Assembly (NCBI GenBank): GCA_018302605.1
Contig: JAGVZN010000015.1
Span: 1 to 47,078, forward strand
From: Candidatus Woesearchaeota archaeon
GTDB taxonomy: Archaea > Nanobdellota > Nanobdellia > Woesearchaeales > GW2011-AR9
Direction of reading: 5' to 3'
Length of the DNA: 47,078 nt
Position 1 is the stretch's first letter. The number at the start of each line of letters is the position of its first letter. The position numbers and the translations under genes were made by a program. Positions 18,841 through 41,564 of this stretch are shown piece after piece. Below the pieces are notes generated by a model that was not told the origin of the DNA, searched no databases, and saw only the letters and a list, made by a program, of their open reading frames with translations.

Positions 18841-19620
18841 ATGTATGTTTATGACCTCAATCCGATTCTGCTCCAATTAGGCCCGCTGGAGATCAGATGG
18901 TACGGATTAGTTTATGTTCTCGGCTTCCTCCTCGCTGCCTGGTGGCTGGAGCGGGCGCGCAAGCAGGGAAAGATAGCACTTTCCCAAAATGATGTTTGGG
19001 ATTTCTTCTTCTATCTGATGGTCAGCATGTTGGCCGGCGCCCGTTTGTTCATGGTCTTCTGGGAGCCGCAGATTTATCTGTACAATCCGCTCAATCTCTT
19101 GAAGATTTGGGAAGGAGGAATGAGTTTTCATGGGGCATTCGTCGGCATGGTCATCGCCGGCTGGTGGCTCTGCCGCGCAAAGAAGCTCGATTTCTGGAAA
19201 CTTGCGGATGTCATTTCTGTTCCGGCGATGTTTGCGCTCGCCCTCGGGAGGATTGCCAACTTTGTGAACGGAGAATTAGTTGGGAGAGTGTGGAATGGAA
19301 GATGGTGTGTTGTCTTTCCAGAATATGGTGACGCTTGTCGCCATCCCAGCCAGATCTATGCTGCCGTGAAACGTTTCCTGGTTTTGGGCTGGCTGGTGTG
19401 GTTAAGTAATCGGAAAGAGTTTACTCCCGGATTCATCTTCTGGAATTTTGTCTTTTTTGAGGGACTGGGCCGGATTATCGTCGATTTTTTCCGGGAGGAC
19501 CCACTGTATTTTGGTTTCAGTCTCGGACAATGGTTCAGCCTGGCCATGGTCATTGTTGCTTTGTGGTTCTTCTGGAAGAGACATCAAGAAGATTGGAAGA
19601 AATTGATCAAAAAGTCATAA
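18841..19620 (+). CDS. lgt: prolipoprotein diacylglyceryl transferase (Lgt)
   Basis: Lgt transfers a diacylglyceryl group to the lipobox Cys of prolipoproteins at the membrane. The 259-residue protein has about seven membrane spans and the family landmarks: the IRWYGLVYVLGF start, GGMSFHGAFVG (His97), the Lgt signature GRIANFVNGELVG (R137, N140, E145), RHPSQIY and a late GLGRIIVDFFRED with the Arg matching E. coli R239. The bacterial enzyme uses phosphatidylglycerol; in an archaeon the donor would be an ether lipid (inference). AGGAAG lies 3-8 bp before the ATG. No lspA is in the window. It is convergent with the ABCE1 gene. Confidence 0.92.
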   Translation: MYVYDLNPILLQLGPLEIRWYGLVYVLGFLLAAWWLERARKQGKIALSQNDVWDFFFYLMVSMLAGARLFMVFWEPQIYLYNPLNLLKIWEGGMSFHGAFVGMVIAGWWLCRAKKLDFWKLADVISVPAMFALALGRIANFVNGELVGRVWNGRWCVVFPEYGDACRHPSQIYAAVKRFLVLGWLVWLSNRKEFTPGFIFWNFVFFEGLGRIIVDFFREDPLYFGFSLGQWFSLAMVIVALWFFWKRHQEDWKKLIKKS

Positions 19621-19757
19621 AAGTGCGGGAAAGCGTCTCACCTCGCTCTTAAGAGCGAGAGGCTTGAACAGAGACGCTTTCTAATCCCCGCACTTTGTGA
19701 CATAAATAGGCTAGAAAGCCCATTCATCCTCATCTTAAAAGAAGAGGCTTTCTGGTC
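19620..19757. terminator. two nested hairpins between convergent lgt and ABCE1 genes
   Basis: Hairpin 1 (about 19620-19698) has outer arms AAGTGCGGG / CCCGCACTT, middle arms AAAGCGTCTC / GAGACGCTTT and an inner perfect palindrome CTCGCTCTTAAGAGCGAG. Hairpin 2 (about 19707-19759) has arms AGAAAGCC / GGCTTTCT and an inner CCTC-TCTT / AAGA-GAGG pairing. Both fill the whole gap between the two gene ends. They may stop or process transcripts from both sides; being GC-rich and lacking long T runs, they differ from ordinary archaeal terminators. A mobile origin is possible, but I saw no target duplication. Confidence 0.5.
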
Positions 19758-22064: not shown

Positions 22065-22178
22065 GCCCCTGTAGCTCAGCGGTAGAGCGGCAGTTTCGTA
22101 GATCAAAACTGGTGCTGGGAAAATCCCTCGCCGGATCGGAAGAACTGCAGGTCACGCGTTCAAGTCGCGTCAGGGGCT
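22065..22178 (+). tRNA. tRNA-Thr(CGT) with 42-nt intron
   Basis: Acceptor stem GCCCCTG pairs with CAGGGGC and the discriminator is T, as in archaeal tRNA-Thr. D arm GCTC...GAGC, anticodon stem GCAGT/ACTGC, T arm ACGCG-TTCAAGT-CGCGT. The anticodon CGT is at 22097-22099. An intron at 22101-22142 follows position 37. The splice site is a textbook bulge-helix-bulge: anticodon stem, central 4-bp helix TTCG/CGGA, 3-nt bulges TAG and AGA cut after their second base, then inner ATC/GAT pairs. GATATTTAT about 26 bp upstream may be the promoter, and T runs follow the 3' end. No CCA is encoded. Confidence 0.93.
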
Positions 22179-38270: not shown

Positions 38271-39248
38271 ATGACCGATGACCTGACAGATATCGTTGAA
38301 GCCGAACTTGTTGCACCAGTCACAGGGCTGGAAGACATTCATCACCACGAGATCAAACAATCAGTAGAGGCGCTTGTTATTGTTCAAGAAAGTAGACCAT
38401 CACCCGCATCTTATTCTCTGTATACTTTTCAGGAACCGCCAAAAGATGAAGATCCACGCAGCAGGATCAGAAAGGGGTGGGACGCAGTTGCTACTTTTTT
38501 TCTCCCGCGGAGTCAAAAAGTTAAGCGGGTACGACAACAAGAACAACGACGCCAAATTGCATACGCTCAGGCGGTGTATCAATGGACAGCCAAAAACAAA
38601 GAGGGAGTTGCTACTGCTTTAGAACAGTTGAAGACGGCGCACGAACATATTGGTGCTTATATTGGACAGACAGAAAATGGTATTGATCATTTACAAAAAG
38701 CATTAGAACGCGCGGAAGCGCAGATCAGCGAGACAAGAGAATATATTCAACGTCTGGAACAGAAAATGGATTCTTCAGATTATAGACGTGAGGAAGAAGT
38801 GCGCGTTGGTGCAGAAGGAGTTTCTGCCATGATTGAACAATATCGTACTGAGCGTGATGCCTGCGAAGCTGAAATGGCTCAAATTGGGGGGGTGAGAGCT
38901 TACGTTTCTGCTCTCGTAAGCGAATTCTCCGGCGATGTCGCTGCATCAAAACAATCATTAGGGCTTATTAAAAGAGTAATAACAGAGACAGTTCCTCTTC
39001 GCCTACGTTTGGAAACGGCACTGCGCCGTTATCATGGTCTTACTGCACCGGAGATTGAAGCTTATCAGGCAACGCATTTTCTTGCTGAAATGAGAACAAC
39101 AGTTGGTGACATGGAGGATAGTACGCGGGAAATCCATCAACGATGGACTGCTCAAGCAGATACATTCTTAGGTACTTCTGACCTTCCGTACGAACCGGTC
39201 TTGACGGAACTGCCTTTATTGCTAGCGCCAGAGGATGAAAAAAAATGA
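38271..39248 (+). CDS. DGR-associated coiled-coil protein, unknown
   Basis: About 325 residues from ATG 38271. TTTATAAAT at 38240-38248 is about 27 bp upstream, so the mRNA is leaderless. Residues 60-95 are strongly basic (SQKVKRVRQQEQRRQ); then come long helices with heptad patterns (about 95-190 and 215-290: LEQLKTAHEHIGAYI, LQKALERAEAQISETREYIQRLEQKM, YRTERDACEAEMAQI); the tail is acidic. No signal peptide or membrane span. The stop overlaps the target gene start (ATGA), so both products should be made together, and this protein is a candidate scaffold or partner of the variable protein. I do not recognise a family. Confidence 0.7.
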   Translation: MTDDLTDIVEAELVAPVTGLEDIHHHEIKQSVEALVIVQESRPSPASYSLYTFQEPPKDEDPRSRIRKGWDAVATFFLPRSQKVKRVRQQEQRRQIAYAQAVYQWTAKNKEGVATALEQLKTAHEHIGAYIGQTENGIDHLQKALERAEAQISETREYIQRLEQKMDSSDYRREEEVRVGAEGVSAMIEQYRTERDACEAEMAQIGGVRAYVSALVSEFSGDVAASKQSLGLIKRVITETVPLRLRLETALRRYHGLTAPEIEAYQATHFLAEMRTTVGDMEDSTREIHQRWTAQADTFLGTSDLPYEPVLTELPLLLAPEDEKK

Positions 39249-40126
39249 GAACATTAGATTTAGACACGCGTTTGGAACAGCTGACGGGGCAGTACGCTGC
39301 TGCGCGAGATACTCTGACTGCCCACCCACAGTTTGCAGAATATAGAACGCTGGATGAGGTTCCTGCTGATCTTGGATTATTAATTCGAGATTATGAAACC
39401 GCTTCGCAAGCATTGCAGCAGAAGGGTATTCCTGTTGCATCTATCGTTCCTCAGAGAAACATAAAAGTATTCCCTGATGCTCTGGAAGCCGATCAGATTG
39501 TGATCCCAAATATTACATTTTACGACGCTCACGGCACTCCTTGGCGAACGTATGGACGAGTGTTTCTAGATCGTAACGCGGTGAAGAACGAAGCAGGGAA
39601 GTATCAGACTCTCAATCAACAGGAATGGATTGATTATTGGAATCAACGCGGCAGAGTTCTGCCCTCTCTTCCACTATGGTACGCGATGCTCGAACGATTA
39701 CACGATGAGCAGCATCCTGGCCTCGATGGCATCGTCAAAGATCTAAAAGAAAGTTGGCTGGCAACAAGCACGCAAGTGGACTATGGACAATCGACGGTGA
39801 AACATGATTCTGGATTTCCGGAACTGCAGACAATTTCAGGTTGTAGTATTCCGGAAGGGAATCATTGGCTGAAAGATATTCTCACACAGAATCAATGGCG
39901 CACCGCGATCCAATCGTTACTTCTCTGTAAAGATGTAGATAAAGCAGTTTCCGTACTTCGGGAAGCAGTGGGCGTACCACCCTACATTTGGACTGCATCT
40001 CAAAAAACACGAAAAACACATCCGCAACGGGCGGTCTGGCTCGGTGCCGATACTGGTAGGCTTTATCTCCTTTGCTACTACTACCTATCGTACAGGGGCC
40101 GTTCCCGCTCGGTGGCTCTCCAGTAG
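39245..40126 (+). CDS. DGR target protein with C-type-lectin-like variable C-terminus
   Basis: 293 residues. The N-terminal half (1-150) is partly helical. The C-terminal half resembles the C-lectin fold of DGR variable proteins, with LWYAMLERLHDEQHP, ESWLATSTQVDYGQ and PYIWTASQK leading into RAVWLGADTGRLYLLCYYY and YRGRSRSVALQ at the very end. The variable repeat covers residues 262-291. Variable sites now read Gly267, Asp269, Gly271, Tyr274, Leu276, Tyr278-280, Tyr283, Val290, Ala291, a Tyr-rich surface like a binding paratope. No signal peptide or membrane segment is seen, so it is cytoplasmic or exported by an unknown route. ATGA coupling to the upstream gene. Confidence 0.88.
   Translation: MRTLDLDTRLEQLTGQYAAARDTLTAHPQFAEYRTLDEVPADLGLLIRDYETASQALQQKGIPVASIVPQRNIKVFPDALEADQIVIPNITFYDAHGTPWRTYGRVFLDRNAVKNEAGKYQTLNQQEWIDYWNQRGRVLPSLPLWYAMLERLHDEQHPGLDGIVKDLKESWLATSTQVDYGQSTVKHDSGFPELQTISGCSIPEGNHWLKDILTQNQWRTAIQSLLLCKDVDKAVSVLREAVGVPPYIWTASQKTRKTHPQRAVWLGADTGRLYLLCYYYLSYRGRSRSVALQ
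40029..40118 (+). repeat. DGR variable repeat (VR)
   Basis: 90 bp aligned without gaps to the template at 40378-40467 (offset 349). 75 positions agree; all 15 differences are at template adenines (A to T 8, A to G 6, A to C 1). Ten of 25 template adenines are unchanged. The repeat ends two codons before the target gene stop. Two changes are silent; most others fall in AAY template codons. Confidence 0.97.
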
Positions 40127-40350
40127 GCGCGGAGCGCCGGCGCGCGAAAAAATGGTTTCCACCAGAAATTATATTCTCGGTCATAGATAAGATTAAGAAC
40201 TGGTTTCTACTCTCTAAACTTCCGGCGATGCCGGTCAAACGGTTTGCCGGAGCCACACGTCAGTTCACGACGGCCATTCGTCTAAAGATTGGTCATGAAA
40301 TTCAGCCGCAACACCTAGTACGTCCGGAACGGCTGAAGCGGCGGTGCAGA
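40126..40350 (+). other. structured spacer between VR and TR, no avd gene
   Basis: After the VR comes GGCGC-GGA-GCGCC (40126-40138), a hairpin in the position where other DGRs have one after the initiation-of-mutagenic-homing site. Further hairpins are CCGGC-GAT-GCCGG (40222-40234), CAAAC-GTTTG around 40240, and TTCAGCCG (40301-40308) with CGGCTGAA (40330-40337). An open frame at 40072-40359 begins inside the VR and does not look like Avd. I read this as non-coding RNA or DNA structure needed for cDNA priming or target recognition. Confidence 0.55.
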
Positions 40351-40359
40351 CTTATATAA
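40351..40359 (+). promoter_or_regulatory. TATA box for the TR-RT transcript
   Basis: CTTATATAA is placed so that transcription would begin at about 40378-40383, exactly where the template repeat begins. The TR would then form the first 90 nt of the RT mRNA. Confidence 0.55.
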
Positions 40360-40374
40360 CGTGAACTGGCTACT

Positions 40375-40464
40375 ATGGGGCGGTCTGGCTCAATGCCAAT
40401 ACAGATAGGCTTAATCTCAATTGCAACAACAACCTATCGAACAGGGGCCGTTCCCGCTCAATGA
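40375..40464 (+). CDS. possible 29-aa leader ORF spanning the template repeat
   Basis: ATG 40375 starts 29 codons (MGRSGSMPIQIGLIS...AVPAQ) that cross the whole TR in a frame different from the target gene. Its TGA overlaps the RT start as ATGA. The first base is at or just before the predicted transcription start, so it may be untranslated or leaderless. It might couple RT translation to passage of ribosomes over the template. Coincidence is possible. Confidence 0.3.
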   Translation: MGRSGSMPIQIGLISIATTTYRTGAVPAQ

Positions 40465-40467
40465 CTC
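40378..40467 (+). repeat. DGR template repeat (TR)
   Basis: 90 bp with 25 adenines, reading in the target frame as L-N-A-N-T-D-R-L-N-L-N-C-N-N-N-L-S-N-R-G with eight AAY codons. AAY codons at mutable positions allow many residues without creating stops, a hallmark of DGR templates. The 3' end overlaps the first codons of the RT frame, and the TR frame is the same as the RT frame. Confidence 0.97.
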
Positions 40468-41564
40468 CGGCGGCCATCTTTCTCATGAAAACATATCCTC
40501 ACCTCTATGGACAAATCTGTTCTCGAGAAAATTTAGAACTTGCTTTTCGAAGAGCGCGAAAAAGAAGAAGTCGGAAACAATACGTGATTGATTTTGAGAA
40601 AGACTTAATGGGAAATCTGCAGCTGTTGCAAACGGAACTTCTTTTCCATTCTTACTGTCCACGCCCATTGCAATCGTTCATTCTTCGCGACCCAAAGACA
40701 CGGAAGATCAGCAAGTCTAACTTTAGAGATAGAATAGTACATCATGCTCTCTGTAATGTTATTGGCCCTCTATTGGAGAAGAAATTTATTTACGATTCTT
40801 ATGCCAATAGAGTTGGTAAAGGAACATTGAATGCAATAGAGCGATTCCATTTTTTCCAAAGAAAAGTCACGAAGAATAATACTCAAAGATGCCATGTCCT
40901 GAAAGCCGACATCTATCACTATTTCGAAACTGTTGATCATACTATTTTAATTCATCTTCTTTCACGAGAAATAACCGATCAACGCGTTCTCTGGCTTGTC
41001 AGAATTATTCTCCAAAATTATACTACTTCGGAAATCGGAAAAGGTATGCCCTTAGGAAATCTCACGTCACAGTTTTTTGCCAATGTGTACCTTAACGAAC
41101 TAGATCAATTTGTGAAACAGCAATTGCATGTAAAGTATTATCTTCGATATGTTGATGATTTTGTGATTTTTGAACGGTCAGCGAAGAAATTGGAAGATTA
41201 TGAAGCAAAGATTGATCTCTTTCTAAAAGATAATCTTGGCCTGCAATTACATCCAGATAAAACAAAGATTATTGAACATCAAAAAGGAATTGGTTTCTTA
41301 GGTTTTACTCTTTTCCCACATCATAAACTTCTTAAAGCAAAGAATGTAAGACATTTTCAGAAGAGATACAACTCACTTTATAATGAGTATGTAACAGAGA
41401 AGTGCAATTACGATCGAGTATATGATTTTCTTGAAGGATGGATGGCGTATGCAAAACAAGCAAATACGTATAACCTCAGAAAGAGAATTCTGTTGAAAAT
41501 GGAAGAAAGATTCCCTCAAGACATCTCCGCAAAAGAATTCAACAGAGCTCACAAACATTTATAA
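40461..41564 (+). CDS. DGR-type reverse transcriptase
   Basis: 367 residues (or 359 from ATG 40485). RT motifs in order: SKSNFRDRIVHHALCNVI; LKADIYHYFETVDHTIL with catalytic D150; GMPLGNLTSQFFANVYLNELD, where TSQ replaces the QG of retron and group II RTs as is usual in DGRs; RYVDDFVIF with D232/D233; then HPDKTKI and GFLGF. The basic C-terminal thumb-like region (300-367) has no extra domain such as maturase or endonuclease. It copies the TR RNA with errors at adenines. It is AT-rich compared with the target gene. A TATA box for the next operon overlaps its end. Confidence 0.95.
   Translation: MTPAAIFLMKTYPHLYGQICSRENLELAFRRARKRRSRKQYVIDFEKDLMGNLQLLQTELLFHSYCPRPLQSFILRDPKTRKISKSNFRDRIVHHALCNVIGPLLEKKFIYDSYANRVGKGTLNAIERFHFFQRKVTKNNTQRCHVLKADIYHYFETVDHTILIHLLSREITDQRVLWLVRIILQNYTTSEIGKGMPLGNLTSQFFANVYLNELDQFVKQQLHVKYYLRYVDDFVIFERSAKKLEDYEAKIDLFLKDNLGLQLHPDKTKIIEHQKGIGFLGFTLFPHHKLLKAKNVRHFQKRYNSLYNEYVTEKCNYDRVYDFLEGWMAYAKQANTYNLRKRILLKMEERFPQDISAKEFNRAHKHL

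Follow-up and report, generated by a model that had tools for sequence, protein, structure and literature searches.

In the diversity-generating retroelement (DGR) of BPP-1, avd lies 5′ of the template repeat (TR), while the interval between TR and brt is a structured spacer to which bRT-Avd is recruited and which primes cDNA at IMH* (PMC12875486). There the TR ends at 1356 and brt starts at 1501, leaving a spacer of 144 nt. Archaeal DGRs have been described from DUSEL4 Nanoarchaeota (PMC4372165), including that of AvpA, for which a lectin-like fold is known (PMC5006420), and DGRs are strongly represented among Woesearchaeota (PMC8421398). We analysed a DGR locus in a 47,078-nt stretch of a Candidatus Woesearchaeota archaeon (contig JAGVZN010000015.1, referred to as the window). 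With BPP-1 it shares the reverse transcriptase (RT) family, the TR and variable repeat (VR), the IMH, and a hairpin after the VR, but instead of avd and the 144-nt spacer it has a structured RNA 5′ of the TR and no avd that we could find. With the DUSEL4 elements it shares adenine-specific TR/VR differences, an IMH/IMH* pair of the TGGGGT/TGGAAT type (as the variant CTCGGTG/CTCAATG in the window), and a hairpin of the trinucleotide GRA type, and its genome resembles theirs in having several DGRs, VRs away from any RT, and orphan targets. The two differ in the hairpin, which lies within the gene in DUSEL4 and starts on the final base of the target stop codon in the window.

The initial annotation had described the locus as a complete DGR and stated that DGRs are known from DPANN genomes. 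Both statements were upheld, the first with the locus identified as a cellular-type DPANN DGR (adenine-specific TR/VR, RT clade, IMH/IMH*, and hairpin) and the second by published cases (PMC4372165, PMC5006420, PMC8421398). The high surprise value that it had assigned to an archaeal DGR was not, because DPANN DGRs have already been published, and the element thus adds one case to a known archaeal group. The features of the locus are listed in Table 1.

Table 1. Positions of the DGR components and associated features in the window
Feature	Position	Strand	Evidence
Upstream ORF, 325 aa, coiled-coil	38271..39248	+	only coiled-coil-type Pfam/NCBIfam matches
DGR target (variable) protein, 293 aa, VR at C-terminus, predicted C-type-lectin-like fold	39245..40126	+	
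Variable repeat (VR)	40029..40118	+	repeat search, TR/VR comparison
IMH core GCTCGGTG, fixed GG at 40111-40112 vs AA in TR	40107..40114	+	23/23 loci; PMC4372165
Post-VR hairpin GGCGC-GGA-GCGCC, trinucleotide GGA loop	40126..40138	+	like GRA-loop hairpins of PMC4372165
RT-16 structured RNA (RF03019), 5′ leader of template RNA	40220..40378	+	92.2 bits, gathering 50
Leader arm GCCGGAGCCA of clamp helix; also 3′ arm of local hairpin P1	40246..40255	+	
Template repeat (TR), 25 adenines, eight AAY codons	40378..40467	+	repeat search, TR/VR comparison
TR 3′ arm TGACTCCGGCGG of clamp helix, directly after IMH* AA (40460-40461)	40462..40473	+	
DGR reverse transcriptase, stop included	40485..41564	+	RVT_1 2.3e-25; PDB 8ub7 1.9e-45; tree

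Adenine-specific repeats and the target gene

An unbiased repeat search recovered VR and TR as two 90-nt copies with 83% identity. Adenines occupy 25 of the 90 TR positions, and all 15 VR/TR mismatches fell on them (15/15), with complete agreement at the 65 non-adenine positions; the probability of such a pattern by chance is about 7e-11. These counts agree with the initial annotation, as do the eight AAY codons, all of which are in frame, and the Tyr-rich variable residues in the VR. The reading of these differences as mutagenesis requires one correction. The GG of the VR, which stands opposite the AA of the TR, was fixed in 23 of 23 related loci and therefore represents an IMH/IMH* mark rather than mutagenesis, following the same GG/AA rule as TGGGGT and TGGAAT in the DUSEL4 DGRs (PMC4372165). 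Read mapping should accordingly show no variation at these two positions. The difference at 40115 is probably another fixed mark of this kind, and when the three 3′-end differences are left out, 12 of the 22 adenines outside the IMH were changed. Across 23 related loci, selected by at least 93% identity at non-adenine positions, 290 mismatches were at adenines and 3 at other bases. By computation, the TR codons allow about 3.7e11 protein variants. No second target for the window TR was found in the genome in a search that allowed up to 3 mismatches.

The target gene does end in the 90-bp VR, as first annotated, but it is confined to the second of two ORFs, the preceding one being separate from it. 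The VR forms the C-terminus of the target, the TR carries the AAY codons, and both the IMH/IMH* pair and a hairpin after the VR are present. Target homologues with the VR in the same place were found in other DPANN loci (L061, 42%; L135, 37%; L173, 27%). Searches of the target sequence against Pfam, NCBIfam, PADLOC, PHROGs, and PDB gave nothing useful, and no membrane segment was predicted. Its AF2 model had a pLDDT of 80.6, exceeding 90 across most of residues 101-292. Comparison of this model with PDB bore on the C-lectin fold anticipated for the C-terminus: the 50 matches listed were all C-type lectin-type proteins, but the best reached only E 0.021 (probability 0.87) and none fell below E 0.001. 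The model thus points weakly to a C-type-lectin-like C-terminus, and the target is a probable binding protein.

The upstream ORF and the target overlap by 4 nt (ATGA), and the two are probably translated together. For the upstream ORF, no membrane segment was predicted (maximum KD19 0.83) and no homologues were found beside other DGRs. As a separate observation, the RT reading frame is open through the TR in many loci; in the window it is open over 40365-41564 and coincides there with the target frame, from which this phase was probably inherited. At another locus (L054 2176-2330), the TR seems to carry a palindromic repeat inserted midway (AAGAAATTAAA...GAAATGAAG...).

The reverse transcriptase, its relatives, and the genome context

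The RT contains the DGR motif TSQ, within MPLGNLTSQ, and YVDD, as had been annotated. Its start is preferably placed at 40485, with 40461 possible. Its PDB match, 8ub7, is an entry that we take to be the BPP-1 bRT. In a tree of 57 RTs drawn from DGRs and group II introns, support for the split between the 54 DGR sequences and the three group II sequences was 100/100. The window RT fell within the DGR clade, where the initial annotation had expected it, as sister to a Woesearchaeota RT (100/85). The nearest named RTs were mostly from Candidatus Woesearchaeota (best identity 62%), and bacterial RTs reached at most about 45%. The best phage match was the DGR RT of the archaeal virus ANMV-1 (38.8%), which lay outside the cellular DPANN group in the tree, but on a long branch. 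Within the order, the RT was present in 77 of 288 genomes at E 1e-20. The window RT also matched the group II RT model TIGR04416, though distantly and without reaching the cut-off, which would suit a reading of the locus as a retron, a group II intron, or a chance repeat. We give that reading a negligible chance, considering the separation of group II RTs in the tree, an RT motif of the SQ (xGxxxSQ) rather than the SP type, and TR/VR differences restricted to adenines.

Some related DGR RTs are longer: L053 12046-13779 (-), L055 6427-8235, L057 3832-5550 (-), and L059 4412-6154 (-) have frames of 570-600 aa. Of these, L053, L055, and L057 were scanned, and each has an HTH_40 domain at its C-terminus. 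RT-16 is found on the strand opposite to such an RT in several genomes.

The genome comprises 1.16 Mb in 32 contigs and is 90% complete. The window neighbours of the DGR are cellular genes (RNA 3′-terminal cyclase, an EF-1 guanine exchange domain, and the HVO_2753 zinc protein), so the element looks chromosomal. A second RT of the genome, 60% identical to the window RT, is located on contig C5 in a second cassette (L008 1844-3401), with RT-16 at L008 1844-1981 and a TR (TR2) at L008 1979-2057. The VR of TR2 lies on another contig (G000:C16:10153-10231 (-)), and the two showed 0 mismatches outside template adenines over 79 positions. On C16 the contig end truncates the target gene; its IMH, GGGGTA, can be seen. 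Earlier work has already noted DPANN VRs that have no RT close by (PMC4372165). The second cassette adjoins a gene for an AAA_5 (MoxR-like) ATPase.

Two further observations concern the wider genome. A dispersed MITE-like repeat with inverted ends (GTCATAAAAGTGCGGG...CCCGCACTTTGTGAC) occurs at 19614-19705 of the window and at L009 8135 and 12513, and one copy lies beside an RT remnant on contig C29. At 22065-22178 of the window, Rfam identified a tRNA of 114 nt that ARAGORN missed; from its length, it probably contains an intron.

The remnant on C29 (L009 7899-8024 (-)) is a C-terminal DGR RT fragment, 48% identical to the window RT. Such a fragment, together with the absence of the RT at E 1e-30 from the two other genomes of the genus, would fit a DGR that has become a non-functional fossil. 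For the window element itself we consider this improbable, given that the RT is open with YVDD intact, RT-16 scores 92 bits, and the IMH, the hairpin, the TR reading, and the non-adenine positions of the VR are all intact.

The RT-16 leader and a probable clamp helix on the template RNA

Between VR and TR, the initial annotation had recorded a spacer. The spacer is present but not empty, as it holds the RT-16 structured RNA, matched over its full length (158/158 model positions) and ending at the first TR base. A small ORF in this region (40072-40359) resembles Avd by position only; it was rejected as Avd because its product has a pI of 11.8 and no homologues and the ORF overlaps the RT-16 RNA. 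RT-16 was found in both DGR cassettes of the genome and in eleven other cassettes of the family, where it ends within a few bases of the TR start wherever a TR/VR pair was found. Within the order, it occurred in 67 of 288 genomes, of which 64 also carried the RT (Fisher 7e-47). It was detected in none of 14 control genomes, nor in ANMV-1 or six bacterial DGR loci. Our literature search, which did not cover the original description of the family, returned no paper on RT-16 RNA, and we found no role stated for this Rfam family.

The Rfam model extends only as far as the TR start and does not include a long-range helix. The leader box right after P1 is complementary to the sequence just past the IMH* AA, forming what we call the clamp. 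Over 28 non-redundant loci, the clamp duplex had an energy of -13.75 kcal/mol, compared with -9.10 for shuffled partners (z -9.4, 0/5000), although the shuffles leave the relatedness among the clamp sequences in place. In the same loci, pairing outside the conserved 6 nt gave z -6.2, shifting the TR arm away brought z to about 0, and 251 of 336 pairs formed in register against at most 143 at other shifts. Because the arms of these discovery loci were first spotted by eye, a hold-out set provides a cleaner test: in 9 independent loci, the clamp retained z -3.2 (8/10000), with a weak signal beyond the conserved 6 nt (z -2.0). The hold-out loci were chosen by rule; a first, stricter rule mispicked some TR ends and was revised once, and the clamp was significant under both. 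Over 37 loci, 73.9% of cells were paired, compared with 62.2% after shuffling and at most 45.0% when slid; covariation was 0.397 versus 0.202, and 10 of 12 clamp pairs showed changes on both sides. The helix also appeared in the unforced minimum-energy fold of 40218-40480. Pairing of the leader with the VR 3′ flank was weaker (-7.9 versus -12.6 for the TR), which argues that the clamp is specific to the TR.

The leader arm could instead serve mainly to form P1, in an ordinary DGR where the match to the TR flank is an idle by-product of conserved boxes. P1 is part of the Rfam RT-16 model and shows covariation in its own right (z -3.7 in the 28 loci), and its stability often equals that of the long-range duplex. 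We nevertheless judge this quite unlikely: the long-range pairing beats shuffles outside the conserved 6 nt while the shifted-arm controls do not, most clamp pairs have changed on both sides, and in the hold-out set P1 reached only z -1.2 where the clamp kept its signal. From the sequence comparisons, an RNA clamp that is absent from the literature searched probably keeps the template RNA closed.

P1 and the clamp might also be the two states of a switch, with P1 in the free RNA and the clamp in the RT-bound template or with RT translation off. The same leader arm has two conserved partners, and the RT ATG usually lies 24-64 nt beyond the point where the TR 3′ arm begins, with exceptions that include the C5 cassette (265 nt) and L049 (>1 kb). 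With the clamp positioned immediately ahead of the RT start, such a switch may concern RT translation, and a link between the two is possible. However, a switch cannot be shown by energetics alone, and in some loci one state is strongly favoured, so that we regard it as conceivable but rather unlikely.

A proposed template RNP in DPANN cellular DGRs

No match to the one Pfam model searched for Avd (PF05635, Avd-like) was found in this 90%-complete genome. This counts against a BPP-1-type layout but not against DGR membership; to our knowledge, not all DGRs have Avd. In the window, the RT starts about 18 nt past the TR, which is too close for a BPP-1-like spacer to fit.

We favour, as likely, a chromosomal Woesearchaeota-type DGR in which a clamped RT-16 template yields adenine-mutagenised cDNA that would rewrite the binding face of a lectin-like target. 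What the sequence shows directly in this account is every cis-acting part, the restriction to adenines, the clade of the RT, where RT-16 sits, and the covarying clamp. In the proposed course of events, a single transcript would carry the RT-16 leader, the TR, and the RT gene. The leader would fold and pair just 3′ of the TR, making the TR a closed loop with its IMH* end at the helix. The RT would then reverse-transcribe the TR with misincorporation opposite adenines, and the resulting cDNA would replace the VR at the end of the target gene marked by the IMH and the hairpin, thereby altering the binding face. This supposes an active element and a target with a binding function. We further infer that the RT-16 leader may do the job of the BPP-1 Avd and 3′ spacer, and that the clamp may set the cDNA start by presenting the TR 3′ end to the RT.

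Only tentatively, at less than even confidence, would we extend this account to DPANN cellular DGRs at large. These would use a template RNP without Avd or 3′ spacer, in which the RT-16 clamp defines the cDNA start, may exchange with the local hairpin, and couples template folding to RT translation or assembly.

Within the literature searched, the new part is the link of RT-16 to archaeal DGR templates together with the covarying clamp. The clamp leads to a model, open to testing, in which the RT of an archaeal DGR could find its template and start on it without Avd or spacer. If true, these elements would be compact diversifiers of one protein and one RNA, which may be easier than BPP-1 to study in laboratory hosts.
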